This document shows, one piece after another, positions 2,688-61,066 of a DNA stretch of 64,000 nt. The stretch is taken from NCBI GenBank assembly GCA_026003235.1, contig BPGW01000001.1:88224-152223 (forward strand). Direction: 5' to 3'. Position numbers and translations under genes: made by a program. This stretch comes from Bacteroidia bacterium. GTDB taxonomy: Bacteria; Bacteroidota; Bacteroidia; SpSt-205. Position 1 is the first letter of the stretch, and each line of letters begins with the position of its first letter. The notes under the pieces are model-generated. The model searched no databases. It saw nothing but the letters and a program-made list of their open reading frames with translations, and was not told the DNA's origin.

Positions 2688-2695
2688 TACTTTTG
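2688..2695 (+). promoter_or_regulatory. Putative -7 element for the SUKH-pabB unit
   Basis: TACTTTTG matches TAnnTTTG exactly and ends four bases before the ATG at 2700, predicting a leaderless transcript. Confidence 0.65.
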
Positions 2696-2699
2696 AGGG

Positions 2700-3062
2700 A
2701 TGGCGGAAGTAGATACCCCGACGCTGCCGCCGGAGTATTATCGGTGGCTGGAGACGGCCCGCCGTTTCCCTATGCTCAACGTGTGGCGGGAAGGGGTACT
2801 CTGCTCTGTCAAGCTGTCTTACCTCCTTGAGCCGCAAAAAGGGGATAGGGATCTGTTTGCGCACCTTGAGAGGGTACAGCGGCTTTTTCCTGAAGGATGC
2901 CTACCGCTGGCGTATGATGTTTTTGGCAATCTGCTCTTGTGGGATATGCGAGATGGGGCGGTGTACCTGCACTGGCAAGGAACGCCACCTTCCAGGAGGG
3001 TGAAAGTCGCTCCTTCGCTGGAGGACCTCTGCGAGAAACTCTACTACAGACCGATACACTGA
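2700..3062 (+). CDS. SMI1/KNR4 (SUKH)-like protein
   Basis: 120 residues without signal or membrane segment. An N-terminal LPPEYYRWLE segment, then FPEGCLPLAYDVFGNLLLWDM and a GAVYLHW strand, resemble the SUKH fold, whose core is a phe-pro-glu-gly turn followed by 'DxxGN'. SUKH proteins include toxin immunity proteins and housekeeping members. No toxin gene is adjacent, so an immunity role is not supported. Its stop TGA overlaps the ATG of pabB by one base (TGATG), which implies translational coupling. Confidence 0.55.
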   Translation: MAEVDTPTLPPEYYRWLETARRFPMLNVWREGVLCSVKLSYLLEPQKGDRDLFAHLERVQRLFPEGCLPLAYDVFGNLLLWDMRDGAVYLHWQGTPPSRRVKVAPSLEDLCEKLYYRPIH

Positions 3063-4219
3063 TGAAGCTTTCTGCGCTCCTCAAATGGGCTGACAAGCAT
3101 CCTTTCTTCTTCTTCCTCTTGCAGAATGACCCTTACGACGACCTCTGGCATTACCGGTGGGTGATGGGGGTAGGAAAGTCTCCGCATAGAGATCCCCTTT
3201 GGGAGGGTCACTGGTACATGGGCGGATGGACTTATGAGTGGCAGGCTCCCTATAAGAGGCCCCTCATAGAGTTTCCCAAGGCGGCTTTTTTCGTGCCCCA
3301 GCTTGTGATCGCTCAGGAGGAAGCCCCTTCGTGGGAAGAGGAAGAGGTGGCATCTCCCACTCGGCGGCTCGGACCTTTCCAAACCACGCTAACAAAAGCG
3401 CAGTTTTTGGAGCGCGTGGAGCGCATTCGGGAGCACATTTACCACGGAGAGGTATACCAGGTGAACTTGTCCTTTGGGCTGTGGTGGGAGCACGCTACGC
3501 TGGACCCTCTTTCGGCGTACCAGCAGCTCCTGGCGGCTTTCCCGGCTGGTTACAATTATCTCTTCAAGTACCAGCAGAAATACATCATTGGAGCTTCCCC
3601 GGAGCGGTTTTTCTGGCAATGGCGAAACCTTGTGGCCCAGCAACCCATCAAGGGCACCATTCGGCGGGGGGCTACTTGGGAAGAAGACCTTCAGCAGGTA
3701 GAAAGGCTCCGCCGCAGCTCAAAAGAACTGGCCGAAAACACCATGATCGTGGACCTGGTACGCAATGATCTGTCTCGCGTATGCGTGCCTGGAACCGTCC
3801 AAGTAGCAGGGTTGGCTTTTGTCCGCAGTTATGCCAACCTTCACCATCTGGTCTCTACGGTGTACGGGGAGCGGGAGAAAGACGTATCCTGGGTGAAAGC
3901 CGCAGCGAGTTTATTTCCGGCGGGTTCCATGACAGGCGCGCCGAAGCAGGCCGCCATGCACTACATCCATGAGTACGAACCGGTAGGGCGGGGATTCTAC
4001 GCTGGCGCCGTGGGCTATATGTCTCCCGAAGGAAGGGCTGATTTCGCCGTGGGAATTCGGAGTTGGATTTATGACAGTGCAGCCCGAAGGCTTCTGCTGC
4101 AGGTGGGAAGTGGCATTACCTACGATTCAGAACCGTCGCTGGAGTGGGAGGAGAGCTGGGTAAAAGCTGAAAAGCTCCTGGAGGCGCTTCAGGTTTCCAG
4201 CCGAGTCTTGAAGTCTTGA
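3062..4219 (+). CDS. pabB: Aminodeoxychorismate synthase component I
   Basis: 385 residues. Converts chorismate with ammonia to 4-amino-4-deoxychorismate for folate synthesis. The chorismate-binding domain fills the C-terminal two thirds, with [26 protein letters not shown] and FYAGAVGYM motifs. The PIKGT motif near residue 195 carries the lysine typical of PabB; anthranilate synthase has alanine there, which argues against TrpE. A longer open frame begins at 2939, but it overlaps the upstream gene; the ATG at 3062 couples to that gene's stop. No pabA or pabC is nearby. The 3' end overlaps nuoB by 31 bases tail to tail. Confidence 0.9.
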
Positions 4220-4692
4220 GCGAGGGAGTGCTCGCGCCGGATTTTTTCCTGCAGCTCCATGAGGGCATGAAGGAGCACTTCCGGGCGGGGAGGGCAGCCC
4301 GGCACATACACATCTACGGGAAGGAACTGGTCTATCCCTTGCACTACCCCATAGACCCGGTGCATGCCGCCAGTAGAGGCGCAGGCCCCCATCGCAATGC
4401 ACCATTTGGGTTCGGCCATCTGGTCCCAAATGCGCTTGATCGCATGGGCCATTTTGTAAGTGCACCAGCCGGCGACGATCATGACGTCGGCTTGTCGGGG
4501 CGAAAACGAAAAGCGCTCCATACCGAAGCGGGCAATATCATATTTCGGTGACGCCGCGGCCATCATTTCAATGGCGCAGCAGGCTAAGCCCATCGGCATA
4601 GGCCAGAGAGAACCCGCACGAGCCCATCCTACCAGATCATCCAATTTCGCCAGCAAGAAGCCTTGCTGGCTGAGAGCCTTTTCCAGATCCAT
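4189..4692 (-). CDS. nuoB: NADH-quinone oxidoreductase subunit B
   Basis: 167 residues. Peripheral-arm subunit of complex I that holds the N2 [4Fe-4S] cluster. Cluster ligands are visible as C38 and C39 ([10 protein letters not shown]), C104 (MGACAST) and C133 (PGCPPRPE). The segment after DVMIVAG reads WCTYKMA where most homologues have a GT(L/V)T-like sequence, so there is an extra cysteine at 77. The gene stands alone: no other nuo gene is adjacent, and nuoD is about 38 kb away. A TACCTTTG element six bases upstream fixes the start. Confidence 0.95.
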
Positions 4693-4698
4693 TCTCTA

Positions 4699-4706
4699 CA
4701 AAGGTA
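4699..4706 (-). promoter_or_regulatory. Putative -7 element for nuoB
   Basis: Minus-strand TACCTTTG, exact match, six bases before the nuoB ATG. Confidence 0.65.
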
Positions 4707-4711
4707 AAGGG

Positions 4712-4915
4712 TCAGGGCTTTGGTTGGGTGCGGCAGGTGTTGATGCCCAGCAGGTAGTACAGGCCGCAGCGTCCCACCAGGCCCGTCAGCGCCAAAAGCG
4801 CTCCTGCAGCAGCAAGCCACCACATCCCCAAATACACGGCTGCTCCTACCAAGGCAAGGCCCCCTACAATTCGGGCGATTTTGTCTATGCCGCCGACATT
4901 TTGGGTCAGTCGCAT
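4712..4915 (-). CDS. Small membrane protein, DUF2892 (YgaP-like)
   Basis: 67 residues. An N-terminal NVGGIDKIARIVGG segment and two hydrophobic helices with a GRCGLYYLLGINTC ending match the DUF2892 family of two-helix inner-membrane proteins, related to the membrane part of YgaP. The two cysteines near the end are typical of the family. It lies 13 bases downstream of the proline dehydrogenase stop on the same strand and is probably cotranscribed. Function is not established. Confidence 0.75.
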   Translation of the reverse strand: MRLTQNVGGIDKIARIVGGLALVGAAVYLGMWWLAAAGALLALTGLVGRCGLYYLLGINTCRTQPKP

Positions 4916-4928
4916 AATAAGTAAAACA

Positions 4929-6125
4929 TTAGCCGGGTTGGAAAAGTTTCCTGCGGCGAGCCAGCTCTTCGGCGATCCAAGCCAGCTCTCGGCCGCTTTG
5001 GTCAGAGAGGCTGGAGTTTTCCTCTGCTCGGCGGGCCAGGTAAGGAAAAGCCTTCTCTATCGGCCCATATGGCACATACTTAGCCACCCGGAAACCCGCT
5101 CGAGCCAGACCGAAGCTGAGCGGGTCTGCCATCCCATACAACTGCGAAAACCACAGGTGGGGGTGATCGTGCGGTAGATTTTTCAGGATCATGAACTGGG
5201 CGGCTTTCATGCAGCTGTTGCGGTTATGGCTGGCCACGCAAAGGGCCACCTGGTCCAGGCGCTCCAGACACTGCATAAGGGCGGCATCGTAGGCTATATC
5301 GGTGGCGGCTTTGGTAGGGTGGATGGGGTCGGCATAACCCTGGTTTCGGGCCCTTTTGCGCTCCTTTTCCACGTAGGCACCGCGAACAAGCTTGATCCCC
5401 AGCCGGTAAGAAGAAGCCCGCCTAAGTAACCCCTCAAGATACTCTAGCCGATCCTGGCGGTACATCTGGACGGTGGTGTACAGCACCACCCGCTCTTGGT
5501 TGAAGCGCTGCATGTACTCCTCTACCACGAGGTCTATTCCTGCCTGGAGCCAGCTCTCTTCCGCATCCACCATGAGGGGGATAGAAGCCTCCTGCGCGGC
5601 GGCAAGCAGCTGCTCAAACTTTTCCCGAAAGCGCTCCTCTTCTCGCCTCAAAGAAGGAGGTAGGGGAGGGGAAGCTATCTTTTCCCACAGAAGGGGGTGG
5701 GCCAGAGCGGTTAGTTTTACAGCCACGAAGCCGACGAGCTCAGGATGCGCCCTGGCGAAGGCTATCATGTGCAGGTATTCCTGCAGGGTCTTTTCCTGGT
5801 CGGCGGGGTCTGTGGAGGCTTCTACGGCGTAGTCTAACATACTCGTAACGCCGTACGCGTGAAGTTTTTTCAGGAGGGGCAGGGTGTCCGGAAGCGATTC
5901 TCCGCCGAGAAAGAGACGGCCTAACGTAGCCCGAAGGAGGGGTTTCACGGGCAGACCCCATCGTAGGGCCACTCCCCCCAGGGTGTTAGACACCCTGACC
6001 AGGGGCCCCCACCGAAGGAGCTTAAACAGCGCGTAAGCCACTTCAAGGTCGCGGGTGCTGCGGTAAGCAAACCCCACCTGCGTGTCGTCCAAGTCTAAGC
6101 CCGTATGGGCATGTAGGATGCTCAT
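4929..6125 (-). CDS. Proline dehydrogenase
   Basis: 398-residue monofunctional flavoenzyme oxidising L-proline to pyrroline-5-carboxylate. The TIM-barrel motifs are clear: GIKLVRGAYVEKER, the SQLYGMAD segment, and the C-terminal YVPYGP...YLARRAEENSS substrate/FAD signature. Length matches the Bacteroidota single-domain form; no aldehyde dehydrogenase domain is fused and none is nearby. The ATG overlaps the valS stop by four bases, so proline catabolism is transcriptionally tied here to valyl-tRNA synthetase. Confidence 0.93.
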   Translation of the reverse strand: MSILHAHTGLDLDDTQVGFAYRSTRDLEVAYALFKLLRWGPLVRVSNTLGGVALRWGLPVKPLLRATLGRLFLGGESLPDTLPLLKKLHAYGVTSMLDYAVEASTDPADQEKTLQEYLHMIAFARAHPELVGFVAVKLTALAHPLLWEKIASPPLPPSLRREEERFREKFEQLLAAAQEASIPLMVDAEESWLQAGIDLVVEEYMQRFNQERVVLYTTVQMYRQDRLEYLEGLLRRASSYRLGIKLVRGAYVEKERKRARNQGYADPIHPTKAATDIAYDAALMQCLERLDQVALCVASHNRNSCMKAAQFMILKNLPHDHPHLWFSQLYGMADPLSFGLARAGFRVAKYVPYGPIEKAFPYLARRAEENSSLSDQSGRELAWIAEELARRRKLFQPG

Positions 6126-8734
6126 AAGCTACCCAGCGCTTCTAACTGCTCTAACAAAAGGGTGCGGCGGGCTTGGTTGTCGGCTAGCTTTTTCTCTTCG
6201 CGGGCGATCACTTCTGGGGCGGCCCGGGTGCGAAACTGAGGGTTATGGAGTTTGGCCTCAAGCTGCCGTAGGAAGCTTTCCACATGGGCCAGCTCTTTCT
6301 GGAGTTTTTCGCGCAGGGTTTGCCAGGCGGTTTCTGGCAAGTCCGCTGCTACGAAATACATGTCAGTCTCCACCAGCACGCGCAGGGCAGGGCCGGTAAA
6401 GGGTTTCTCACTAAGGGTGAGCTCCTCAAGGGGTAGGAAATGGTGGAGCCAACCTTGAAGGTCTGAGAAGCGCTCAGGACGCTCGGTCTGGATATGCAGC
6501 CTTAAAGGGCCTTGCAAAGAGAAGCTGTGCACGAGCCCTCGGATGCGCGAAATGGCTTGCTGGATGTAGCGCACCGCTTGCAGATAGGTCTTTTCAGAAG
6601 GGGAGAGGGAGGTAGGTTCGGGTAGCGAGGTGAAACTTAGGCTTTTTTCTGGGGGAGCGCCCGTGCGCACATGCCATAGCTCTTCGGTGAGAAAAGGCGC
6701 AAAGGGATGTAAAAGCTGCAGGAGGTGTAAGGCTTGGGCGGCCACCTCTTGCAAGAGAGGCTGAGAGGGACCAGGCTTGAGCGCTTCTAAATACCAGCTG
6801 CAAAAATCTTCCCAGATCCCCCGGTACAGGGTGTGCATGGCTTCATAGAACCGGTATTGACCAAGGAGGGACTCTACCTCGGTGTGGAGCTCTCGGAGCC
6901 GCAAGGTAAACCACCGGTAGGCGGCTTGATGGAAAGGATCCGGTTCGCCGGGGGTGGAACGCTCTTCCCACAAGCTGAGCAGACGGAAGCTATTCCAGAC
7001 TTTATTGCAAAAGTTTTTTCCTTGTTCGCAGAGAGCTTCGTCAAAAAGGAGGTCATTGCCTGCGGGGGCGCTTAGGACGATGCCTATCCGTACCGCGTCT
7101 GCTCCGTAGCGCGCAATGAGGTCCAGGGGGTCTGGCGAGTTGCCCAGAGACTTGCTCATTTTGCGGCGCAGTTTATCCCGCACAATGCCATGCAGGTACA
7201 CGACGGAAAAGGGCTTTTTCCCTGTAAAGTGGTACCCTGCCATAATCATGCGCGCTACCCAGAAAAAGAGAATCTCAGGAGCCGTAACCAGGACTTGGGT
7301 GGGATAGTAGTAGCGGAAATCTGGGTTTTCTGGGGCTTCAAAGTAGTCAAACACCGATAAGGGCCATAACCAGGACGAGAACCAGGTGTCTAACACGTCT
7401 TCATCTTGGCGCAGGGAAGAGGGGTCATACCCTGCTTGGAGGGCTTGAGTTTGGGCCTCTTCGGCGGTGAGGGCGACAAAGACCTGGCCATCGGGTGCGT
7501 ACCAAGCTGGGATGCGGTGCCCCCACCACAGCTGCCGAGAGATGCACCAATCGCGTACATTCTCCAGCCAGTGGCGGTATATCCCCTCAAACCGGTCCGG
7601 GACGAGGCGCACGTCGCCTTTTTCAACGGCTTGGAGGGCCAGTTCAGCCAGGGGCTTCATTCGCACAAACCACTGTTCGGAGAGGCGGGGCTCTACGACG
7701 GCATCGGTGCGTTCGGAGTGGCCCACGGTGTGGGTGTAAGGTTCGGTTTTGGCTAAGAGGCCTGCCGCTGCCAGGTCAGCTAAGATTCGGTGGCGGGCTT
7801 CTTCTCGGCTAAGGCCGGCATAAGGGCCGGCGTTTTCGTTGAGGTGGGCCTCAGGTGTGAAGATATCTATGATAGGCAGGCCGTGTCGGAGGCCGATTTC
7901 GTAGTCTTTGGGGTCGTGTGCGGGGGTCACTTTGAGGCAGCCGGTGCCAAATGAAGGGTCTACGGCTTCATCGGCGATGACAGGCACCCACCGGTCGGTG
8001 AGGGGCACCCGGACCTGCCGGCCAATCCAGCTTCGGTACCGTTCGTCGGAGGGATGAACGGCAACCGCCACATCCGCTAAAATGGTCTCCGGCCGTACCG
8101 TGGCGATAGTCAAGTACTCCCCGTTTTCTGCGGGATACCGTACATAACAGAGGAGGGATTCCCGCTCTTTGTAGAGGACCTCTTCGTCAGAGAGGGCAGT
8201 GAGGGCTACGGGGTCCCAATGGATCATTCGTTTACCCCGGTAAATAAGCCCCTGGCGGTAAAGCTCTACAAAAACTTTTTCCACGGCGCGGTAGAGGGGG
8301 GGATCCAGGGTAAAGCGATACCGCTTCCAATCTGCGCTTACGCCGAGCTGTTTAAGCTGTTGGACGATGATGCCGCCATGCTTGTGGGTCCACTCCCAGG
8401 CCTTTTGGAGGAAGGTCTCTCGGCCAAGGGTGCGTTTGTCCAGCCCTTCCTCCCGCAAGCGGGCTACGACCTTGGCTTCTGTGGCGATGGAAGCGTGATC
8501 GGTACCTGGCACCCAGCAGACGTTGTAGCCTTTCATGCGGTGGAAGCGGGCTAAGATGTCCTGGATCGTGTTGTTGAGCACGTGCCCCATGTGGAGAACG
8601 CCGGTGACGTTGGGTGGGGGCATCACCAAGGTATAGGAGACACGCTCATCCGGCTCGCTATGGTAAGTGGCGTGCTCTTCCCACAGGGAGCGCCATCGGG
8701 CTTCTATAGGGCCCGGTGTATAGGCCTTTTCCAT
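6122..8734 (-). CDS. valS: Valyl-tRNA synthetase
   Basis: 870-residue class I synthetase that charges tRNA-Val. The HIGH motif appears as HMGH (48-51) after PPPNVTG, and KMSKS at 525-529. Between them lies the CP1 editing domain (about 195-340), including the TVRPETILADVAVAV segment. The C-terminal 65 residues form the usual ValS coiled coil. Start is supported by a TAACTTTG element five bases upstream. First gene of valS-putA-DUF2892. Confidence 0.97.
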   Translation of the reverse strand: MEKAYTPGPIEARWRSLWEEHATYHSEPDERVSYTLVMPPPNVTGVLHMGHVLNNTIQDILARFHRMKGYNVCWVPGTDHASIATEAKVVARLREEGLDKRTLGRETFLQKAWEWTHKHGGIIVQQLKQLGVSADWKRYRFTLDPPLYRAVEKVFVELYRQGLIYRGKRMIHWDPVALTALSDEEVLYKERESLLCYVRYPAENGEYLTIATVRPETILADVAVAVHPSDERYRSWIGRQVRVPLTDRWVPVIADEAVDPSFGTGCLKVTPAHDPKDYEIGLRHGLPIIDIFTPEAHLNENAGPYAGLSREEARHRILADLAAAGLLAKTEPYTHTVGHSERTDAVVEPRLSEQWFVRMKPLAELALQAVEKGDVRLVPDRFEGIYRHWLENVRDWCISRQLWWGHRIPAWYAPDGQVFVALTAEEAQTQALQAGYDPSSLRQDEDVLDTWFSSWLWPLSVFDYFEAPENPDFRYYYPTQVLVTAPEILFFWVARMIMAGYHFTGKKPFSVVYLHGIVRDKLRRKMSKSLGNSPDPLDLIARYGADAVRIGIVLSAPAGNDLLFDEALCEQGKNFCNKVWNSFRLLSLWEERSTPGEPDPFHQAAYRWFTLRLRELHTEVESLLGQYRFYEAMHTLYRGIWEDFCSWYLEALKPGPSQPLLQEVAAQALHLLQLLHPFAPFLTEELWHVRTGAPPEKSLSFTSLPEPTSLSPSEKTYLQAVRYIQQAISRIRGLVHSFSLQGPLRLHIQTERPERFSDLQGWLHHFLPLEELTLSEKPFTGPALRVLVETDMYFVAADLPETAWQTLREKLQKELAHVESFLRQLEAKLHNPQFRTRAAPEVIAREEKKLADNQARRTLLLEQLEALGSL

Positions 8735-8739
8735 CCAAG

Positions 8740-8747
8740 CAAAGTTA
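8740..8747 (-). promoter_or_regulatory. Putative -7 element for valS
   Basis: Minus-strand TAACTTTG, exact match, five bases before the valS ATG. Confidence 0.65.
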
Positions 8748-8753
8748 CCAAGC

Positions 8754-12299: not shown

Positions 12300-12307
12300 C
12301 AAAAATA
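12300..12307 (-). promoter_or_regulatory. Putative -7 element for hmgA-hppD
   Basis: Minus-strand TATTTTTG, exact match, four bases before the hmgA ATG. Confidence 0.65.
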
Positions 12308-12348: not shown

Positions 12349-12356
12349 TACCTTTG
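12349..12356 (+). promoter_or_regulatory. Putative -7 element for FkbM methyltransferase 1
   Basis: TACCTTTG, exact match, four bases before an in-frame GTG at 12361. It would remove any start upstream of 12361. Confidence 0.55.
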
Positions 12357-12360: not shown

Positions 12361-13350
12361 GTGAGTCCTGAGTCCCTTTCCTGGCGAATGCGACTTTTCA
12401 TCCAACTGAATCGGTGGGGCATATTACCGGTCGCAAGCGAAAGAAGTATAGGCCTTCGGCTGCTTCGGATGAATGACCTATTACGGCATACCGACAAAGC
12501 CCGTCAGATCTTGCCTTCTGTGCGGGGCGCTGCTTTCCGGGTACTTCTGGGGAAAACCACGCATACGCTCCACTTGCCTCAACCCGTGCGGATGGAGGTA
12601 TCCCCTACAGCGCTTTCGGCGCTTGTCAAACTGTGGGGGCGCTTCCCTGTGAAGGAAGTCCGGCCTGCAGAAAACCTCCTGGTCTGGGAAGTGACTGAGG
12701 GGGTGTTTTTTCCCACTCGCACAGACCGGAGGAGCGACTTAGAAACTCTCTATGAAGTTTTCGTCAAAAACATCTATGGGGACCACTTCGAAGGTAAGCG
12801 GATTCTGGATATAGGCGCTTTTCGTGGCGAAAGTACCTTGTTTTTCCTTTTGGAAGGTGCGGCAGAAGTGGCTGCTTTAGAACCCTCTCCTGAAGGCTTC
12901 AGGACCATACAAGAGGTAATTCGTCATGCTCCTCACCTGAAAGAGCGTTTGCGGCTTTATCCGGTGGCCATAGGAGCTACAGAAGGAGAGCAAATCCTAC
13001 TTGTGTCTCAAGACCATCCAGCGGGTTCTCAAATCGGCAACTTGGGCGAAAAGGCAGAGAAAAACACAAAAGGTTTTGAACCAGCATCTGTTCCCGTATG
13101 GACCTTTGAACGCCTGCTAAAGGAGCTTGGCTGGGAAACGATAGACTTGGCCAAGGTAGACTGTGAAGGGTGCGAGTACGCCATCTTTTCCACCACACCC
13201 GATTCGGTGCTGCGACGAGTCAAACGATGGGTGATGGAGTTTCATGGAGGAGGAGAACCTATAGCCCAGCGGCTTCGTGGACTGGGATACGAGGTGGAGT
13301 ACCAGGAGAGGCCCGATAAGATGGGGAACCTTCGGGCTTGGCTGCCGTAA
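12361..13350 (+). CDS. FkbM-family methyltransferase, paralogue 1
   Basis: About 329 residues from GTG 12361; ATG 12388 is the alternative start. A SAM-binding Rossmann core is visible: ILDIGAFRGESTLFFLLEGA (motif I) and AALEPSPEGF, then the FkbM signature IDLAKVDCEGCEYAIF. The N-terminal 120 residues are an extension shared with the paralogue at 19181, including a DLETLYEVFVK segment. The family O-methylates sugars, polyketides or lipids; the substrate here is unknown. The GTG is preferred because a -7 element ends four bases before it, as for neighbouring genes. Ends one base before the convergent subtilase. Confidence 0.8.
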   Translation: MSPESLSWRMRLFIQLNRWGILPVASERSIGLRLLRMNDLLRHTDKARQILPSVRGAAFRVLLGKTTHTLHLPQPVRMEVSPTALSALVKLWGRFPVKEVRPAENLLVWEVTEGVFFPTRTDRRSDLETLYEVFVKNIYGDHFEGKRILDIGAFRGESTLFFLLEGAAEVAALEPSPEGFRTIQEVIRHAPHLKERLRLYPVAIGATEGEQILLVSQDHPAGSQIGNLGEKAEKNTKGFEPASVPVWTFERLLKELGWETIDLAKVDCEGCEYAIFSTTPDSVLRRVKRWVMEFHGGGEPIAQRLRGLGYEVEYQERPDKMGNLRAWLP

Positions 13351-18311: not shown

Positions 18312-18319
18312 TACCTTTA
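18312..18319 (+). promoter_or_regulatory. Putative -7 element for the Xer recombinase
   Basis: TACCTTTA, one mismatch to TAnnTTTG, four bases before the GTG at 18324. Confidence 0.5.
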
Positions 18320-18323: not shown

Positions 18324-19184
18324 GTGGTAGAAGCCTTTGTGGCTTACTTGGCGGGTTTGCGCAAAGCCAGCCCCCACACGATAGAAGCTTACCGGCGTGA
18401 CCTGGAAGGCCTGCAGGCTTTTTGCCGGGCGCAGTACGGTTTTGATCCCTTTGCGGGGCCGGAAGCATGGGCCCAGCTGGGCCGGCCTGCCCTTTGGGCT
18501 TGGCTGAGCGCGTTTCCTCGGGCCTCTACCCGTGCTCGGAAGGTCGCAGCGGTCCGACGCTTTGATGCTTACGTGCGTCAAGTTTTGCGCAAGCCGGGCC
18601 TCTCTTGGCGTCCTGCTACGCCTCGTCTGCCTCGGGGGCTACCCCGAGCCCTCCCCGAAAAACACCTCCTGGCTACCCTTGAGAGGCTATCTGAGCAGCC
18701 TCAGGACTTTGTTACCCTGCGCGATCGGCTGGCCCTGGAACTGCTGTATGGATGTGGGCTGCGGCGGAGTGAGGTCGCTTCCCTCAAGGTAGAACAGGTG
18801 CATTTTTCTCTGCGGCAGCTCCACATTCTCGGCAAGGGCAGTAAGTGGCGAGTGATTCCCCTCTACGATGAGGTGGAAGCGCTTCTCAAGGCGTACCTTG
18901 CCCATCGTACCAAGCTGGGGGTGCAGCATAGCTTTTTACTGTGCACGGAAAAGGGTGCCCCCCTCTATCCGAAGGCGCTCTACCGGCTGGTGCGCAGGTA
19001 CTTGGGTACGCATCCGCATGCGCTTCGGCACAGCATAGCTACGCATCTGCTTGGGCGGGGTGCCAGCGTACAGGCCGTCAAAGAACTCTTAGGCCATAGC
19101 AGCCTGGCCACCACCCAAAAGTACCTCGCCATTACCCCGCAGGCCCTCAAAGAAGCTTACCTTCGCCTGCACCCTCGGGCATGA
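18324..19184 (+). CDS. XerC/XerD-type tyrosine recombinase
   Basis: 286 residues, the usual length of chromosomal Xer proteins. The N-terminal SAM-like core-binding domain spans about 1-85. In the catalytic domain the first arginine is in LYGCGLRRSEVASL, the lysine in LGKGSKWR, HxxR in HALRHSIATHLL, the second histidine in LLGHSSLATTQKY and the tyrosine nucleophile in the same motif. Expected to resolve chromosome dimers at dif; no dif-like site was recognised here. Start is GTG. Its stop overlaps the ATG of the next gene. No mobile element surrounds it, so a housekeeping role is more likely than a phage or transposon integrase. Confidence 0.88.
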   Translation: MVEAFVAYLAGLRKASPHTIEAYRRDLEGLQAFCRAQYGFDPFAGPEAWAQLGRPALWAWLSAFPRASTRARKVAAVRRFDAYVRQVLRKPGLSWRPATPRLPRGLPRALPEKHLLATLERLSEQPQDFVTLRDRLALELLYGCGLRRSEVASLKVEQVHFSLRQLHILGKGSKWRVIPLYDEVEALLKAYLAHRTKLGVQHSFLLCTEKGAPLYPKALYRLVRRYLGTHPHALRHSIATHLLGRGASVQAVKELLGHSSLATTQKYLAITPQALKEAYLRLHPRA

Positions 19185-23006: not shown

Positions 23007-23014
23007 CAAAAGTA
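23007..23014 (-). promoter_or_regulatory. Putative -7 element for the DUF6438 operon
   Basis: Minus-strand TACTTTTG, exact match, four bases before the ATG. Confidence 0.65.
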
Positions 23015-30190: not shown

Positions 30191-30198
30191 CAAAGATA
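30191..30198 (-). promoter_or_regulatory. Putative -7 element for sod-guaA operon
   Basis: Minus-strand TATCTTTG, exact match, four bases before ATG 30186. Confidence 0.65.
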
Positions 30199-31719: not shown

Positions 31720-31742
31720 AGCAGGAGCAGAGGATTTTTCTT

Positions 31743-31750
31743 TACTTTTG
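31743..31750 (+). promoter_or_regulatory. Putative -7 element for the SDGG-repeat gene
   Basis: TACTTTTG, exact match, four bases before ATG 31755. Confidence 0.6.
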
Positions 31751-31754
31751 CGGC

Positions 31755-32931
31755 ATGCGAGTGGTTGTAGCTTTGGCGGTCGTGGGCTGCACCATGGCAC
31801 AGCCTATAACCTTCCAGCGGACCTTCGGGGGGGGGGAGCTGATGAGGGCTACTCCATTATACACACTTCGGATGGGGGGTATGCGATTGTGGGGACCACG
31901 GGGTCGTTTGGGACTGGAGAGGAGGATACGGATGTGTATGTGCTCAAGCTGGATCAAGCTGGGGAGGTTCAGTGGGAGCGCGTGTTCGGTGGGAGCAAGT
32001 GGGATGTAGGCTCCTCCATTATACAGACTTCGGATGGGGGGTATGCGATTGTGGGGAGCTACGGCTTCGTTTGGGTCTGGCGAGATGGACGGGTTCAGGA
32101 CAGATGTGTATGTGCTTAAGTTGGATGGGTCTGGGAATCTTCAGTGGATGCGTACCATACCCGCAGAGGGTAAGATGGGAGCTGTGGGTCACTCCATTGT
32201 TCAGACTTCGGATGGGGGCTATGCGATTGCGGGCACGGCATATGGAGTAGGAGACTATATGGAACGATGTCCATGTAATCAAGCTGGGGGCAGGTGGCAA
32301 TATTCAGTGGCAGCGTATGCTTGATTGGGGTGGGGATGATAGGGGCCATTCTATTATTCAGACTTCAGATGGAGGGTATGTGGTTGTGGGTGAACCATAC
32401 TGGGCTGCCCCACGGGTATGTGGCCAAGCTGGATAGGGCTGGGAATGTCCAGTGGGAGCACTCCATTGGAGAGCCTGGGTCAGAGATTTTCTCCCATGCT
32501 TATTCCATTACTCCGGTTTCGGATGGAGGTTATGTGGTTTTGGGGGACATAATCCACTTTGGGGCCGGGGAAGGCGGTGTGTATGTAATCAAGTTGAGTA
32601 ACGAGGGGAAAGTCCAGTGGGAGCGGACGTTGGGGGGAGAGGATGCAGGGGCTACTCCATTATACAGACTTCGGATGGGGGCTATGCGGTTGCGGGGATG
32701 ACGGAGTCGTCTGAGGATAGGGACACAGACGTGTGTGTGCTCAAGTTGGATCAAGCTGGGCGGGTTCAGTGGGAGCGCACGTTTGGCGGGAGCAAGAATG
32801 ATGAAGGCTGCTCCATTGTACAGACTTCGGATGGGGGCTATGCGATTGTGGGGACGACGGAGTCGTTTGGGTCTGGAGGGAAGGACATCTATGTGCTCAA
32901 GCTGGATGCGGACGGGCAGCTGAGGAAGTAA
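31755..32931 (+). pseudogene. Secreted SDGG-repeat (beta-propeller-like) protein, multiply frameshifted
   Basis: A signal peptide (MRVVVALAVVGCTMAQP) is followed by about six repeats of roughly 50-55 residues with the core S-I-I-Q-T-S-D-G-G-Y-A-I-V-G, then DVYVLKLD and G-x-x-QWER. The repeats are spread over all three plus-strand frames, so at least five shifts are needed to read through. The first falls in a run of ten G at 31827-31836, where eleven G would restore the frame with standard repeat length. Others are near 32052, 32265, 32395 and 32640. It ends in DGQLRK, with no C-terminal sorting domain visible. Promoter and signal peptide are intact. Confidence 0.75.
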
Positions 32932-33170
32932 AGCGTCAGGGCGTGGTGGGGGATGAGCTTGGAAGGGGGCGGCCAGTATTTGTTTAGGTAGGATCGTGGG
33001 CGTTTTGGTTTTCAGAAAGAAGCGATCGGGGAGCTTGCGGCAGCGGCGGGTTGGGCTCCTCCTGACGTGGGGGAGGCCGAGCCCCTCCCTGAGGTTACCG
33101 TTAGGCGTCAGCTGGTGCTTGGTAAGAGTCAGTCCTTCAGACCCTCCTCTTCTCAAGCTCTCGCGGGGCG
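32932..33170. other. Intergenic stretch before the carotenoid operon, nothing recognised
   Basis: About 240 bases. No convincing coding frame, hairpin terminator or TAnnTTTG element adjacent to the next start was found. It may hold a promoter of another type for the carotenoid operon or remnants of the repeat gene. Confidence 0.4.
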
Positions 33171-34841
33171 ATGATCAGGCTTTCTAAAGGAGTGCCCTTC
33201 ACCTCCGAGGCTTTGCCCTTTCCTTCGCAGGCGCTGAGGGCGTCGTACGCTGAGGCGCGTCGCCTGACTCGGCGCTATGCCCGAACTTTTTACTTTGCCT
33301 CGCATGGGCTGGATGCTGGGCGCCGATGGGCCTCGTATGCGGTGTACGCCTTTTGTCGGGCGGCGGATCAGGTGGCGGATGAGCCGGGTCCTGACCCCCA
33401 GGGAGAGCTCCTTCGGCTGCGAGCCCTCCTAACCCAGCCCGAAGCGCACCTGGCGCTTTACCCCTGGGCGCTCGCCTGGTGGGATACGGTCCAACGGTAT
33501 GGGATCCCCCTGCAGCTCTTTGAGGAACTCTTGCGGGGGGTAGAGATGGATTTCACCCAAACCCGTTACGAAACTTTTGAGGAGCTTCGCCTGTATTGTT
33601 ACCGGGTGGCGTCGGTGGTTGGGCTGATGATGGTCTACATTTTGGGGTTTGAGGACGAGAAGGCCTTTTACTATGCGGAGCGGTTGGGTCTGGCGATGCA
33701 GCTCACCAATATTGTGCGGGATGTGGGCGAAGACTGGGAGCGAGGTCGGGTATACCTCCCGCAGGAGGAGCTTCGGCGTTTTGGTTGCGACGAAGCGGAC
33801 CTGGCGCAGAAAACCTACACGCCCGCTTACCGGGCGTTGATGGCGTTCCAGGTGGAACGCGCCCGGGCCTTCTACCGGGAAGGGCTGGAAGGGCTGAAGT
33901 ACCTCCCTTCTTTGCCTGCGCGTCTTACGGTTCGGAGCATGGCTTCGCTGTATGCAGGCATCCTTGACCGGCTGGAAGCGGAGGGGTTCCCCAACCTGCA
34001 TAAGCGGGTGTATGTGCCCCTTTGGCGCAAAGTCTTTTTGGCTGCCCAGCAAGGGGCCTTGGAACTGCGAGAAGTGGCTCAGCGGGTAAGCATGCGGTAT
34101 GCGAGGTGGGGGTTGGTAGGGCTGCTGGGCTTGACGGCTTCGGCCCTTGTGTCGCTATATACGGGGCTCTTTGCGGAATGGCGCTGGATGGATAGCCTTT
34201 ATCTCTTTGTGTGGGAGGCCGTGGTGCTGGGGTTAGCGCTGCAGGCCAGAGGGAGCCTGCGCTCTTTTTTGGTGGGGGCGTTGGCCGGCGGCGCCGCAGA
34301 AGTCATCGGGGTTCACACGGGCTGGCCTTTCGGCCTGTACCACTACACCGCTGTGCTGCAGCCGCAGTGGGCTGGGGTGCCGGTGGTGATACCGCTGGCG
34401 TGGGGCGCGCTCATTCTGTATGCGGCAGGGATGGGCCCCGGAAAGACTCGTCTGGGACGCGCGGGCTGGGCAGCCCTGCTGGTTACGGGCATAGATGTGC
34501 TGCTGGAGCCTTTTGCCACGGCGGGGCGAGGCTACTGGGTCTGGGCAAACGGCGTCATCCCTTGGAGCAATTACCTCAGTTGGGCCTTTCTCAGCGGAGG
34601 GATAGTCGCCTTGCTGCCCTACCCGCTTCGGTTTTCTCCTGCGGTGGCCCGTGGACTGAGCGCTGCCGTGGGCTGTCTGGTTCTTCTTGTGGGGTCTTTT
34701 GCGTGGAGGCAGGGACCCTTAGAGAGCGCCGCGGCGGGGAGCCTCCTGGTTGGCTTAAGCCTTTTGTGGGGCTTCTTGGCCAGCTGGCGAGGCCGGCTAA
34801 ACTCCTCTTTTTGGCCATGGCGGTTTCGGTGGCCGTCGTAG
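33171..34841 (+). CDS. Phytoene synthase fused to CruF-like (DUF422) carotenoid hydratase
   Basis: 556 residues in one uninterrupted frame. Residues about 20-300 are a squalene/phytoene synthase with both aspartate motifs, D66-x3-D70 (AADQVADEP) and D184-x3-D188 (RDVGEDWERGRVYLP), joining two geranylgeranyl diphosphates into phytoene. From about 308 the protein becomes a multi-helix membrane domain with EVIGVHTGWPFGLYHY and GVPVVIPLAWGALI, the signature of the DUF422/CruF family that hydrates the terminal double bond of acyclic carotenoids. It heads the carotenoid operon and overlaps the next gene by 25 bases. No -7 element was seen at its start. Confidence 0.85.
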   Translation: MIRLSKGVPFTSEALPFPSQALRASYAEARRLTRRYARTFYFASHGLDAGRRWASYAVYAFCRAADQVADEPGPDPQGELLRLRALLTQPEAHLALYPWALAWWDTVQRYGIPLQLFEELLRGVEMDFTQTRYETFEELRLYCYRVASVVGLMMVYILGFEDEKAFYYAERLGLAMQLTNIVRDVGEDWERGRVYLPQEELRRFGCDEADLAQKTYTPAYRALMAFQVERARAFYREGLEGLKYLPSLPARLTVRSMASLYAGILDRLEAEGFPNLHKRVYVPLWRKVFLAAQQGALELREVAQRVSMRYARWGLVGLLGLTASALVSLYTGLFAEWRWMDSLYLFVWEAVVLGLALQARGSLRSFLVGALAGGAAEVIGVHTGWPFGLYHYTAVLQPQWAGVPVVIPLAWGALILYAAGMGPGKTRLGRAGWAALLVTGIDVLLEPFATAGRGYWVWANGVIPWSNYLSWAFLSGGIVALLPYPLRFSPAVARGLSAAVGCLVLLVGSFAWRQGPLESAAAGSLLVGLSLLWGFLASWRGRLNSSFWPWRFRWPS

Positions 34842-43514: not shown

Positions 43515-43522
43515 CAAAGCTA
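43515..43522 (-). promoter_or_regulatory. Putative -7 element for nuoD-asnB
   Basis: Minus-strand TAGCTTTG, exact match, four bases before the nuoD ATG and overlapping the stop region of the upstream gene. Confidence 0.6.
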
Positions 43523-44861: not shown

Positions 44862-44869
44862 CAAAGGTA
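44862..44869 (-). promoter_or_regulatory. Putative -7 element for ABM-radical SAM unit
   Basis: Minus-strand TACCTTTG, exact match, five bases before the ATG. Confidence 0.65.
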
Positions 44870-45627: not shown

Positions 45628-45635
45628 TACCTTTG
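45628..45635 (+). promoter_or_regulatory. Putative -7 element for lat-his operon
   Basis: TACCTTTG, exact match, four bases before ATG 45640. It is the only clear promoter before the long his operon. Confidence 0.65.
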
Positions 45636-53918: not shown

Positions 53919-54216
53919 GTATCAGCTTGTAGGTCTGTTACATGCCTTGCTGCCGGTCGTGCCGCTGGGAAGGGATCGGAAAAAACAACCTTTTGTCGTC
54001 CTTACCGATACCCCCCGGCCCCAGTATATTCTGTTAGAGGCCCACGGTCCGCTTGTGGAAAGGGTGCAAAAAGTGCCTCTCCACGCGAAGGTCGCCGTGC
54101 GGTTTGCGTTGGAAGGCTGGCTTTGGCATCCCCCTCAAGGAGCGGCCCGCTATGTGGTGCGCCTTCTGGCTCTTGAGATTACCCGGCTGGAGGAAAACAT
54201 GCCGACGGGCTCGTAA
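53902..54216 (+). CDS. DUF3127-like protein
   Basis: 104 residues. [20 protein letters not shown], and a later [12 protein letters not shown] with a final strand-rich region resemble DUF3127, a small beta-barrel family common in Bacteroidota and possibly OB-like. The GREW-type motif of the family is degenerate here (LEGWLW). Overlaps hisIE by 17 bases. Its TAA stop is the first part of the -7 element for the next gene. Confidence 0.6.
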
Positions 54217-54221
54217 CTTTG
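54214..54221 (+). promoter_or_regulatory. Putative -7 element for the SPT-like gene
   Basis: TAACTTTG, exact match, six bases before ATG 54228. Its TAA is the stop codon of the upstream gene. Confidence 0.6.
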
Positions 54222-57313: not shown

Positions 57314-57963
57314 ACCGCTTCCTTTTCCTGGTGGCGAGCTTGCTGTGGGCGCAGGAGCCTATCGTCTACCAACTCTCCGGCATGGTTCTTAGCGCCACCA
57401 CCGGCGAACCCATCCCTTTTGTTTCGGTGCGGGTGGGGCGTACGCGCCGGGGTACCGTCGCTAACGCAGAGGGCTTCTACAGTTTGCCGGTGGTGCGCAG
57501 CGATACGCTGTATTTCTCTGCCGTAGGCTACAAAAAAGGCCGCTTCATTGTGAGCCCATACCTGGACGCCTACCAAGGCGATACCACCTCCGGCTACCTC
57601 TATGCGGTGCATTACCTGGTTGAAGACACCCTTGAGCTGCCTACCGTCCGCATCTCAGCTATCCGCACCCCCGAAGAGCTCAAAACCGCCTTGCTCAACG
57701 TGCCCCTGGAAACCCAGACCCAGGTCGCACGCGACAATGTTAGCCCTGAACTTATTGCCTACTTCCTGCAGAACCTCCCCGCCGACCCCCAGGAGCGCAT
57801 AAAAGTAGCCGAGCAGCGCTACCGAGACCTCTACTACAACCGAACCTTGCGGCCGGTTTATCCCATCTTAGACCCCATAGCGGCCTATCGGCTCGTGCGC
57901 TACCTGGCCGAGAAGGCCCAAATCAAGCGCGAAAAAATCTACGACTACTGGACCGATGACTGA
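57310..57963 (+). CDS. Secreted protein with carboxypeptidase-regulatory-like domain
   Basis: 217 residues. Signal peptide (MNRFLFLVASLLWAQ), then a beta-sandwich domain with GMVLSATTGEPIPFVSVRVGRTRRGTVANAEGFYSLPV and the SAVGYKKGRF turn, the same type of domain as at the N-terminus of TonB receptors. The C-terminal 100 residues are helical and polar, with no second domain. Likely periplasmic or outer-surface. ATGA overlap with the phosphatase; 3' end overlaps the convergent DUF2520 gene by 19 bases. Confidence 0.75.
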   Translation: MNRFLFLVASLLWAQEPIVYQLSGMVLSATTGEPIPFVSVRVGRTRRGTVANAEGFYSLPVVRSDTLYFSAVGYKKGRFIVSPYLDAYQGDTTSGYLYAVHYLVEDTLELPTVRISAIRTPEELKTALLNVPLETQTQVARDNVSPELIAYFLQNLPADPQERIKVAEQRYRDLYYNRTLRPVYPILDPIAAYRLVRYLAEKAQIKREKIYDYWTDD

Positions 57964-58714
57964 GCTATGTAAGAACGAATGTACTGGCTCATCGCTTGGT
58001 AGATGGGCGCCAGAGGAGGGGCTATTCGCTCAAGCAGGGCCAGGTGCTTGGTGAGGGTCTTTTCGTCGCCTCGGCGAGCCGGACCCGTTTGGGCCTCCTG
58101 GGGTGAGAGCCCTTGCAATTTGGAAAGAACCTCTTTTGTGAGCGGTAGATACACCTCTCGCGAAAAAGGAGCCGGCAAAACCGCTTCCGCCATGTGAAAA
58201 AGCGCATTGACGAAGTTAGCCGTGAACACCGCTCCTACATGGAGGCGCAGGCGGGTTCCGCTATCCGCAAAGTGAACCTTGGAAGCGTCTTGGGTGAGCG
58301 TTTCAGCCCAAGTTTGCGCCGCTGGAGTCCCTTCCCAAAAAACGAAAAATTCCCCCCAGTTTACCCTTCGCCCTGCGCTGAAGCTCTGCAAGGGATACAC
58401 TACACCAGCCTGGGATCCAAAAAAAGGCTCCAGTACGGCCAGTTCTACTGAACCGGCTGTATGAAACACCGGCACTTCCGGGGTGAGGTGCGGCGCAATC
58501 TGCGCAGCTACCGTGGGCAGTTGGGCGTCCCGCACGCATAAGAAAAGCGCCTTCAACGCCGGCCACGGAAAAGCTTCCTCCGCAGAGACCACCAGGAAAG
58601 GGGGTGTCCAGGACCTGATAAGGGCGCTTGAGCAGGGCCACAGCGAAACCCAGCTCATGCAGTCTCCAGGCGAGAGCCTGCCCCACGCCCTCCAGCGCCT
58701 ATGATGCCTACCAT
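57945..58714 (-). CDS. Rossmann-fold plus DUF2520 protein, twice frameshifted near its N-terminus
   Basis: The intended start is ATG 58714 (MVGIIGAG), with a dinucleotide-binding glycine motif. To read the conserved GQALAWRLHELGFAVALLKR one base must be removed at the triplet run 58688-58690; to continue into FLVVSAEEAFPWPALKALF one base must be removed from the five-base run at 58600-58604. The rest is intact to the stop: VPVFHTAGSVELAVLEPFF, GVVYPLQSFS, and the DUF2520 part with NFVNALFHMAEAVL. A dehydrogenase-like protein of unknown substrate. ORF callers will start it in a wrong frame at 58742. Confidence 0.72.
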
Positions 58715-58717
58715 GCT

Positions 58718-58725
58718 CAAAATTG
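58718..58725 (-). promoter_or_regulatory. Putative -7 element for the DUF2520 gene
   Basis: Minus-strand CAATTTTG, one mismatch, three bases before ATG 58714. Confidence 0.4.
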
Positions 58726-58727
58726 TG

Positions 58728-58734
58728 TACTTTG
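58728..58734 (+). promoter_or_regulatory. Putative -7 element for the S1P-lyase-like gene
   Basis: TACTTTG, with one spacer base instead of two, six bases before ATG 58741. Two bases separate it from the opposing element. Confidence 0.45.
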
Positions 58735-58740
58735 ACCGGC

Positions 58741-60171
58741 ATGAGACTACCTTCTCAAGGCCTGTCTAAGGAGTCTATCCTGGCTGAACTGGACGCCCTC
58801 AAAGCCCAGGATACCCAAAGCACGGATGGGCGGTTGTGGAGTCTGGTGTACTACCACAGCCCGGAAGTGCATGAGTTAGCCCAGGCTGCGTATGCCCGCT
58901 ACATAGCCGAGAATGCGCTCAATCCGCTGGCTTTCCCCAGCCTCCGCCGCATGGAGAACGACCTCATCGCCATGGTGAGGCACCTTCTGCACTGCCCGGG
59001 TGTAGGCACGCTGACCAGTGGGGGTACCGAGAGCCTTTTTTTGGCGCTCAAGGCTGCCCGGGATTACGCTCGGGCTCGGCGCCCTCATATCGCCCAGCCG
59101 GAGGTGATCGCGCCTCTTTCGGCGCACCCGGCCCTGGATAAAGCCGCCCAGTACTTGGGCCTGCGCATGGTGCATACGCCCCTCACGACGGAGGGAGCGG
59201 CCGACGTGGCCGCCATGGAAGCCGCCCTTTCTGAGCGCACGATTCTCCTGGTGGGCTCGGCGCCTTCTTACCCCCATGGGGTGATGGACCCTATTCCGGA
59301 GATTGCCGCTTTGGCCGCTTCGCGGGGCCTCTTGTGCCATGTGGACGCCTGCATAGGGGGGTTCATCCTTCCCTTTTTGGAACGAATCGGCGTGCCGGTG
59401 CCGCCCTTTGACTTTCGGGTAGAGGGGGTCACAAGCCTTTCCGTGGACCTGCATAAGTACGGCTATACCCCTAAGGGGGCTTCGGTGCTCTTGTATCGGG
59501 ACCGAGAGGTGCGGCGCCATCAGTTTTTTGTATACGGGGGCTGGCCAGGAGGTATCTACGCCTCGGCTACTTTTGCAGGCACGCGTTCGGGTGGAGCTAT
59601 CGCAGCTGCTTGGGCTGTCTTGCGCTACTTGGGCGAAGCAGGCTACACCGAAGCTGCTCGCAAGACTTGGGAGGCCACCCAACGGCTGCGGGACGGCATT
59701 CAGCAGATTCCAGGTCTCTACTTAGTAGGCAAGCCGGCGGCTACGATCTTGGCTATAGGCGCGCACCCTCCCTTGGATATCTACGCTATCGGCGATGCCC
59801 TGGCTAAGCGAGGGTGGTTTCTAGACCGGCAGCAGAAGCCTCCCAGCTTGCACCTCACCGTCACGGTCGCTCATGCAGCCGTGGTAGAGGCTTTTCTTCG
59901 TGATCTGGAAGCCGTGGTGGCAGAAGAAAAGCACTCTGCCTCCCGGGCTATGTGGCGTCGCCGCTTAGGTCGGACGGTGACGCACACCGCCCTTCGGATC
60001 CTTCCTTCGCGCTGGGTGCGTACTCTGGCCAGATGGGTCAGCGCCACGGCTCGCAATCCGCGCCCTTCACGGCGTACAGCAGCTATTTATGGCATGATGG
60101 CCGCCTTGCCCAGCCAAGACTCGGTAGAGAAGCTCGTAGAGGACTTCTTAGACAAAACGCTGGAAGGGTAG
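58741..60171 (+). CDS. Sphingosine-1-phosphate lyase-like PLP enzyme
   Basis: 476 residues from ATG 58741. Group II decarboxylase fold. GTLTSGGTESLFLALKAARDYAR, CHVDACIGGFILPF, PFDFRVEGVTSLSVDLHKYGYTPKG with K239 as PLP lysine, and WPGGIYASATFAGTRSGG match sphingoid-base-phosphate lyases better than glutamate decarboxylases. These cleave phosphorylated sphingoid bases to an aldehyde and phosphoethanolamine. No N-terminal membrane helix is seen, unlike eukaryotic forms. The C-terminal 90 residues are a basic helical tail. The SPT-like gene lies 3 kb upstream. Confidence 0.85.
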   Translation: MRLPSQGLSKESILAELDALKAQDTQSTDGRLWSLVYYHSPEVHELAQAAYARYIAENALNPLAFPSLRRMENDLIAMVRHLLHCPGVGTLTSGGTESLFLALKAARDYARARRPHIAQPEVIAPLSAHPALDKAAQYLGLRMVHTPLTTEGAADVAAMEAALSERTILLVGSAPSYPHGVMDPIPEIAALAASRGLLCHVDACIGGFILPFLERIGVPVPPFDFRVEGVTSLSVDLHKYGYTPKGASVLLYRDREVRRHQFFVYGGWPGGIYASATFAGTRSGGAIAAAWAVLRYLGEAGYTEAARKTWEATQRLRDGIQQIPGLYLVGKPAATILAIGAHPPLDIYAIGDALAKRGWFLDRQQKPPSLHLTVTVAHAAVVEAFLRDLEAVVAEEKHSASRAMWRRRLGRTVTHTALRILPSRWVRTLARWVSATARNPRPSRRTAAIYGMMAALPSQDSVEKLVEDFLDKTLEG

Positions 60172-60191
60172 TCTACGGGGTGGGGGTTCAG

Positions 60192-61032
60192 CTACTCGGC
60201 GGCGGGCGCCGTCTCCTCCGAAGTCCTCGAAGGCCTGGGAAGAAAGAGCCACCCAGGGCTCCCCAGAAAGGCTTCCGGGGAAAGGGTGCGCATTCCTTCC
60301 AGCGCTTGGGCCGAATCGCTGAAAAGCACAATAAGGTCAGCTTCGTACGTGTGGGCTACATTTAGAATCAGCTGAACAAAGCGAGGGCCGCTCCAAGAAA
60401 CTTTCTCATACGCAGAGGCCTGTACAAGGCGCTGAAGGCGGCTATGCATCTTCTCTATGCGGCCATCTGGGCGCAAGAGAGGAAGGGCCGCAACCTGGGC
60501 ACCTACTTTGCGGGTGAGGGTGCGTAAAAAACGAAACCCCTTCCGGCGAACGGTAATCCGCATCGTACACCACCAGCATCTTCTTCCAGGTTATCCGACT
60601 CTCTGGAAAAACCACCAGGATAGGGATGGAAGCGTGGTGGATGAAGTGGCGAGTATGAAAGCCCAAGGCTCCTTCGGAGTCTTCGCCCTGGCCTTGAGCG
60701 CCCAGTGCCAAGAGGCGGTAGCTTCGGCTTTGGAGGTATCGGTGCAACCCCTCGGTCAAGAAGTCTCGTTGGGAAACCAGGCGGATACTGCGCCGTTCGT
60801 TAGCGGGCACATGGGCAGCCACAAACTCGCGTAGGCGCTGATGGGCAGCTTGCGCCGCCTCTTGTTCCATCTGTTCAATTATGTGAGCTGACAGGAAGGG
60901 CAATCCACGAGGCAGCTGATAAGCATGGTAAAGAACCAGCGAATCCCGCAGCTTCCTTCGCAGGGGAAGGAGCGCTTGCAGCACCGCAGCCGAGGCTGGA
61001 CTATAGTCAATGGCGGCTAAGAGCTTCCCCAT
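60192..61032 (-). CDS. Tandem universal stress protein, frameshifted mid-gene
   Basis: Start ATG 61032 (MGKLLAAIDYSPASAAVLQALLPL). The first UspA domain ends with GFHTRHFIHHASIPILVVF. The second begins KKMLVVYDADYRSPEG and then loses frame at a four-base run at 60537-60540; removing one base continues as FRFLRTLTRKVGAQVAALPLL to the stop at 60192, giving about 279 residues, the usual length of a two-domain Bacteroidota UspA. ORF callers will list 60442-61032 and 60192-60563 separately. The start is supported by TACTTTTG five bases upstream. Confidence 0.8.
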
Positions 61033-61037
61033 CCTTA

Positions 61038-61045
61038 CAAAAGTA
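61038..61045 (-). promoter_or_regulatory. Putative -7 element for the universal stress protein
   Basis: Minus-strand TACTTTTG, exact match, five bases before ATG 61032. Confidence 0.62.
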
Positions 61046-61058
61046 GGCTCTTTTTCCG

Positions 61059-61066
61059 TACCTTTG
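61059..61066 (+). promoter_or_regulatory. Putative -7 element for the DUF349 gene
   Basis: TACCTTTG, exact match, nine bases before ATG 61076, the longest spacer among exact matches here. Confidence 0.55.

Follow-up and report, generated by a model that had tools for sequence, protein, structure and literature searches.

Candidate −7 promoter boxes set close to the start codon in a lineage of Bacteroidia

In a 64-kb stretch of DNA from an uncultured Bacteroidia bacterium (G000:C1:88224-152223, hereafter the window), the element TANNTTTG, the −7 box known from promoters of Bacteroidota, repeatedly lies a few bases before a start codon. This raises the question of whether transcripts of this organism begin at, or almost at, the codon where translation begins, as the initial annotation proposed for most transcription units. 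We consider it very probable that the boxes are sigma-ABfr-type −7 elements that place the transcription start at, or no more than about 3 bases upstream of, the start codon. Roughly one half of the divergent genes, and some 40% of putative transcript starts overall, would then be leaderless or nearly so, a smaller share than the majority first claimed. The source genome (G000) is 2.06 Mb in size, 82% complete and divided into 11 contigs. By the 870-residue valyl-tRNA synthetase (ValS), the closest named relatives of the window are "Bacteroidia bacterium" metagenome-assembled genomes (MAGs), KatS3mg025 and SKY/SKW, which we take to be of hot-spring origin.

Spacing between box and start codon

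By itself, the box count of the window is unremarkable: there are 24 exact matches to TANNTTTG, compared with 18.4 (s.d. 3.95) in shuffles, and at least 24 are present in 10 of 100 shuffles. What is unusual is where the boxes lie. All 13 coordinates listed in the initial annotation are exact boxes, with an ATG or GTG after a gap of four, five or six bases (Table 1); the sites are thus real, although the count attached to them was eleven. Eight of the 24 lie 3–8 bases before one of 50 starts called without knowledge of the motif, compared with a mean of about 0.06 over those of 20,000 rotations that fall below the observed value; three rotations reach 8. Behind the other five listed boxes, this caller missed the starts at 2700, 31755 and 61032 and misplaced those at 12361 and 23002.

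The same spacing is found throughout the genome. In whole-genome counts of G000, controlled by the reversed pattern, TANNTTTG-N{0,12}-ATG occurs 539 times compared with 81, TANNTTTG-N{3,6}-ATG 361 times compared with 23, and TAHHTTTG-N{4,5}-ATG 232 times compared with 6 (GTG version, 91 and 9). Gene starts were called with a simple codon-usage caller blind to the box, in 400 kb of G000 (347 genes) and in 440 kb of the 2.27 Mb of G301 (370 genes), a genome of the same family (f1). Exact TAHHTTTG lies at gap 3–8 before 63 of the 347 starts in G000 and 72 of the 370 in G301, with means of 1.0 and 0.6 in far windows. For gaps 0 to 8, the G000 counts are 0, 0, 0, 4, 35, 12, 6, 5 and 1; gap 4 holds 35 genes in G000 and 45 in G301, and gaps 0–2 hold none. 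This histogram, which the initial annotation had proposed as a check and which covers the 400 kb plus the whole-genome counts, thus has a sharp peak at gap 4 and supports leaderless or near-leaderless transcription as the best reading.

With the two genomes pooled and starts allowed to move among ATG and GTG codons, 182 of 717 genes are boxed (149 ATG, 33 GTG). The gaps 3, 4, 5, 6, 7 and 8 account for 8, 105, 33, 18, 13 and 5 of them, the choice among several boxes favouring gap 4; none of the 182 has its box at gaps 0–2, although those gaps were open. Such a one-sided edge is expected if the start codon cannot precede the transcription start. Before TTG candidates, no box was found at gap 3–7 (0 of 391).

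To estimate the share of starts with a box, a box model was trained in one of the two genomes and tested in the other, at a threshold of 5 and with shifted-window controls. At predicted starts, it is passed by 51 of 153 putative transcript starts in G000 (control 1.7) and 65 of 175 in G301 (1.7), and by 41 of 88 (0.5) and 50 of 114 (0.7) divergent genes. If any nearby ATG or GTG is allowed, these become 64 of 153 (5.7) and 74 of 175 (7.0) putative transcript starts and 46 of 88 (2.7) and 58 of 114 (4.2) divergent genes. Before subtraction of controls, 44–52% of divergent starts and 33–42% of all putative starts therefore pass. The box is less common before operon-internal genes, at 20 of 151 in G000 (control 0.8) and 25 of 147 in G301 (1.2). 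A zero-or-one-occurrence-per-sequence expectation-maximization search with a free position prior was also tried; it placed the box at gap 3–8 in 62 of 153 (G000) and 87 of 175 (G301) putative transcript starts. Only its peak was trusted: the free prior overfits outside the peak (its total is 100% in four of seven sets, all small) and the shuffles retained the learned prior, and the cross-validated model was used in its place.

Promoter anatomy, translation signals and alternatives

Among 88 boxes found with TAnnTTTG, G occurs at the two free positions with frequencies of 0.07 and 0.05, and AT content is 0.58–0.67 at 5–8 bases upstream of the box. In the available text on Flavobacterium johnsoniae, promoters have TAHHTTTG, an AT-rich patch at −18, a transcription start 4–5 bases past the box and a hardly visible −33 element (PMC6847099). 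With that spacing, gap 4 would put +1 on the A of the ATG. We infer that the boxes are sigma-ABfr-type −7 elements, which would be recognised by the primary sigma factor. The earlier statement that there is no consistent −33 element needs a small correction: TTTG is over-represented at 20–24 bases before the box, where 14 of the 182 pooled promoters have it (2.0 expected) and 168 do not.

Among orthologues, the box and its spacing persist where the remaining upstream DNA has diverged. Comparison of G000 with G301 gave 164 reciprocal best pairs; a box is present in both members of 32 pairs (8.8 expected if independent), in the G000 member alone of four and in the G301 member alone of eight. In 27 pairs the box precedes the same aligned start codon; nucleotide identity in these is 0.34 at −30 to −16, 0.44 in the spacer and, after the ATG, 0.68, 0.79 and 0.45 by codon position. 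The comparison required exact boxes, so identity within the box is by construction, and co-occurrence, shared start and flanks alone are informative. For valS, a box at gap 4–6 is present in the window and in all seven named relatives read (L021–L027, seven of the eight near ones; L043 is without the start), upstream of which the DNA is unlike. The valS box is at gap 8 in G307, of the sister family f52, and in G341, of family f86, a TATTTTTG is found at gap 5 from an ATG that is itself two codons upstream of where the alignment puts the start.

Two upstream translation signals are missing from f1. As the initial annotation had noted, there is no Shine–Dalgarno (SD) pattern: SD-like 4-mers at −18 to −4 are below control in both genomes (8.6% compared with 11.8% in G000, 8.1% compared with 11.6% in G301). 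The enrichment of A from −3 to −13 is likewise absent (0.50–1.09 of background, the box A at −11 excepted); it is present in families f5, f3 and f7. At −3, A relative to background is 0.87 in both f1 genomes and 0.77 in f52, compared with 1.80 in f5, 1.49 in f60, 1.30 in f3, 1.26 in f7 and 1.19 in f86. The bS21 gene, rpsU, was found in 11 of 12 f1 genomes, the exception being G304 (99% complete). Ten of these rpsU loci were fetched (L221 in G000:C5, L222–L230); all ten have a box (nine exact, one with one mismatch) at gaps 5–7 and no SD sequence by eye, so rpsU looks leaderless in f1.

The box, its spacing, its conservation and restriction to a lineage, and the lack of SD and A-rich leader signals can be read from the DNA; how ribosomes are recruited at the putative leaderless starts we infer. 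The −7 box would recruit transcription initiation onto, or within about 3 bases before, the start codon. The mRNA would then carry a 5′-terminal AUG or GUG without a ribosome-binding site, and translation would have to start, as it does in leaderless systems elsewhere, through recognition of this codon together with initiator tRNA.

Could the element instead be a U-rich translation signal, read by S1 or the ribosome in leadered mRNAs, and no promoter at all? Its fixed short distance to the start codon, the lack of an SD sequence and the boxed operon-internal genes would fit. However, its letters are those of a known promoter box, including the avoidance of G and the AT-rich upstream patch in the parts of PMC6847099 available; it is commoner at divergent than at operon-internal genes (in G000, 41 of 88 compared with 20 of 151); and gaps 0–2 are empty. 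We regard this explanation as very unlikely. Just as unlikely, in our view, is that the boxes are promoters of genes whose true start codons lie further downstream, behind ordinary leaders. In its favour, another in-frame ATG or GTG follows in the 27 orthologue pairs at a median distance of 23 codons, and within 7 codons in eight of them. Against it, nucleotide identity follows the codon period, and at each of codons 2–11, counted from the boxed ATG, residue identity amounts to 0.44–0.81, which indicates that coding constraint begins there; furthermore, the motif-free caller chose the boxed start in 69 of 88 cases. Chance, base composition or a choice of starts to fit the motif would account for the ordinary box count of the window, yet is excluded by the reversed-pattern, motif-free-start and shifted-window controls together with orthologue co-occurrence, and we give it practically no weight.

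Several points weigh against leaderless or near-leaderless transcription as the explanation. The strict box model is failed by about half of the divergent genes and by most genes with a same-strand upstream gap of at least 60 bases, and the operon-internal boxes imply internal promoters or some other role. Leaderlessness is deduced from box position, and the 4–5-base spacing on which this depends is borrowed from another family. Starts come from a simple caller applied to part-genome samples. The missing A-enrichment arises in part because the boxes put TTTG at −8 to −5, and rpsU of the sister family (G307, L115) is without such a box. Finally, at gap 3–8 family f3 has exact boxes at three of 272 starts, compared with 0.5 in the control, and one-mismatch boxes at 20 of 272, compared with 7.8, which makes the contrast between f1 and f3 one of degree.

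Lineage distribution and known systems

The placement of the box at the start codon is a habit of a lineage and not of the phylum. In a sample of 296 genomes from the phylum, G000 exceeds its control 15.7-fold. Nearly all of the other genomes stay under 3-fold, the highest value noted being about 5-fold (G136). Among 80 genomes of relatives, the 12 from f1 are 5- to 21-fold over control; G307 has 229 sites compared with 167 for the reversed pattern. Two f60 genomes also stand out, at 15-fold and 6-fold, but the first has only 77 sites in 3.7 Mb and the second only 75 in 4.3 Mb. GTG sites, counted in 13 genomes, number 59–93 compared with 5–17 in f1 and 38 compared with 30 in f52. In a sample of the class (396 genomes, 203 genera), the excess per Mb is 82–111 in 11 f1 genomes and 110–142 in three f86 genomes (G341, G375 and G403), followed by f93 and f7 with up to about 65. 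Only f1 and f86 exceed 80 excess sites per Mb; these values were worked by hand from rounded genome sizes, and the 396 rows were scanned for values above 80 rather than each computed.

In the eight genomes sampled with the same measure, the two of f1 included, exact boxes at gap 3–8 were found at 24 of 168 starts in f52 and 17 of 112 in f86, and at 0 of 57 in f5. The f52 peak (G307, L115–L134) is at gap 5–7 instead of 4, as if a leader of 1–3 bases were preferred. The f86 sample, from G341, has a GC content of 35%, and the family has as many box–ATG sites per Mb as f1. A valS tree (48 rows, one gene) groups f52 with f1 (100/98) and places f86 elsewhere, with f93 (96/93); its rows are 36 of 80 named loci, the window and 11 of 12 further loci, the 88-residue L220 having been dropped. 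The habit is thus not general in Bacteroidota: the phylum is known to have the box, but a box set at the start codon is characteristic of f1, with a gap of 5–7 in f52, and is again strong in one other family.

G041 (f7) and G315 (f60) had promising raw ratios, that of G315 (77 compared with 5) being similar to that of G000 with few sites; they were dropped, as exact boxes at gap 3–8 precede only 1 of 63 and 1 of 97 starts. Family f60 is high in GC, has few box–ATG sites but ratios of roughly 10 and upwards in several genomes, and shows one-mismatch boxes at gap 3–8 before 11 of 97 starts, and is perhaps a high-GC, degenerate-box version of the same habit. Neighbouring genes often overlap by four bases (ATGA type), as in 48 of 149 close same-strand pairs of G000 and 34 of 147 of G301; the scarcity of such overlaps in the FCB group has been linked to AT-rich sites in the portion of PMC9581028 available. 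The overlaps are no mark of f1, since they are also frequent in f7 (6 of 17) and f60 (5 of 16); f3 has 6 of 42 and f5 0 of 11. A search for 16S rRNA in 13 genomes of the order, the single-contig G301 included, gave no match with either the Rfam model (positive in 9 of 14 controls) or a conserved sequence pattern; we suppose that 16S is missing from the genome copies searched, not from the organisms.

As far as the available text of PMC6847099 and PMC7366714 goes, the sigma-ABfr promoters of Bacteroides and Flavobacterium share with those described here the −7 box, the avoidance of G, an AT-rich patch upstream at roughly one turn of the helix and a weak or hardly visible −33 element. They differ in that their box lies mostly further from the gene, whereas here it abuts the start codon. 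In the parts of the sources seen, leaders under 10 nt make up about 3.7% in B. thetaiotaomicron (PMC7366714), leaderless transcripts 5.5% in F. psychrophilum (PMC9723704), and in F. johnsoniae 87% of predicted leaders exceed 10 nt, while 13% of the genes that have a probable promoter show leaders no longer than 10 nt (PMC6847099). Leaderless genes of Actinobacteria, Deinococcus-Thermus and archaea likewise have their promoter box at a set distance of a few bases from the start codon and no SD sequence, but use another sigma factor and box. The mean leaderless share is 19.2% in Actinobacteria and 39.4% in Deinococcus-Thermus in the accessible part of PMC3160421, a survey that sought only Pribnow-like boxes and reported one of 37 Bacteroidetes/Chlorobi genomes, with 2.4% of its genes. 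PMC5397173, citing that survey and two papers on ribosome-binding sites, says that many leaderless mRNAs had been reported from Bacteroidetes; the table of PMC3160421, as available, does not support this. Excerpts of PMC10783764 mention that leaderless mRNA had been reported for some Flavobacteriia, and GeneMarkS-2 results, as relayed in the available part of PMC9581028, assign leaderless transcription to 21.6% of the bacterial species and, to the FCB group, AT-rich sites of a non-canonical kind. Among the openly licensed PubMed Central (PMC) papers listed in our searches, we saw none with a high measured leaderless fraction in a Bacteroidota. Leaderless mRNA is known, and has been measured as rare in the few Bacteroidota studied; a lineage in which about half of divergent starts are predicted to be leaderless would be a variation on this.

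Bacteroidia ribosomes mask the anti-SD, according to the text seen of PMC9976891. With the A-rich (Kozak-like) leadered Bacteroidia in which bS21 does so, f1 shares the lack of SD sequences and the presence of bS21, but not the A-enrichment. In many Flavobacteriales rpsU has an extended SD sequence (PMC9976891, same portion), where f1 has the leaderless-type box. We lean towards the view that f1 and, with its shifted gap, f52 form an order-level lineage in which leaderless or near-leaderless transcripts are the main start mode, the A-rich signal has been lost and bS21 kept, and rpsU of f1 is without SD control; that f86 (with f93) came to this mode independently; and that it was missed by surveys seeking Pribnow-like boxes and by work on leadered cultured models. 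If so, the bS21 feedback of Flavobacteriales cannot operate in that form in f1. A-rich leaders are the usual answer to how Bacteroidia recognise their start codons, and f1 would be a natural experiment, with the same promoter type and bS21 kept and the leader gone. Box spacing would also provide a start-codon rule for annotating f1 genomes. The finding runs counter to the expectation, in the available part of PMC3160421, that a large share of leaderless genes is improbable where the box is not of the Pribnow kind.

Individual boxes in the window

The box rule had been used to select ATG 30186 for sod, GTG 12361 for FkbM-1 and GTG 18324 for Xer, and each of these codons opens the expected protein (Table 1). 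One-mismatch boxes precede seven starts in the window, fewer than the ten or so given initially.

Table 1. Candidate −7 boxes of the window and the start codons behind them
Box	Position	Strand	Gap	Start codon	Product
TACTTTTG	2688..2695	+	4	ATG 2700	SUKH/SMI1-like protein (Pfam just under cut-off)
TACCTTTG	4699..4706	−	6	ATG 4692	NADH dehydrogenase 20 kDa subunit family (Pfam)
TAACTTTG	8740..8747	−	5	ATG 8734	Valyl-tRNA synthetase-like
TATTTTTG	12300..12307	−	4	ATG 12295	Homogentisate dioxygenase-like (Pfam)
TACCTTTG	12349..12356	+	4	GTG 12361	FkbM methyltransferase (Pfam)
TACCTTTA (one mismatch)	18312..18319	+	4	GTG 18324	Phage-integrase-family (Xer-like) protein
TACTTTTG	23007..23014	−	4	ATG 23002	DUF6438 protein (Pfam)
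TATCTTTG	30191..30198	−	4	ATG 30186	Fe/Mn superoxide dismutase (Pfam); G301 orthologue retains box
TACTTTTG	31743..31750	+	4	ATG 31755	83-codon open reading frame, broken-looking
TAGCTTTG	43515..43522	−	4	ATG 43510	Complex I 49 kDa subunit (Pfam)
TACCTTTG	44862..44869	−	5	ATG 44856	ABM domain protein (Pfam)
TACCTTTG	45628..45635	+	4	ATG 45640	Class III aminotransferase (Pfam); conserved in G301
TAACTTTG	54214..54221	+	6	ATG 54228	Class I/II aminotransferase (Pfam)
TACTTTTG	61038..61045	−	5	ATG 61032	Universal stress protein
TACCTTTG	61059..61066	+	9	ATG 61076	DUF349 protein (divergent)

If transcription begins 4 bases past the box, the divergent gene behind box 61059 would have a leader of about 5 bases. 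The remaining 10 of the 24 exact boxes were not taken as gene starts; one of them, at 19116, has a GTG at gap 4, yet no minus-strand open reading frame of at least 90 residues begins there. The open reading frame behind box 31743 stops inside an apparent out-of-frame repeat protein (31755-33190), and the caller called no gene in 31720-33191; the region may hold a disrupted gene or a frameshift of the assembly. At two sites the first three bases of the box are also the stop codon of the upstream gene (TAG at 43520-43522 on the minus strand, TAA at 54214-54216 on the plus strand), an arrangement that G000 and G301 together show in 7 of the 99 boxed genes whose upstream neighbour is on the same strand.

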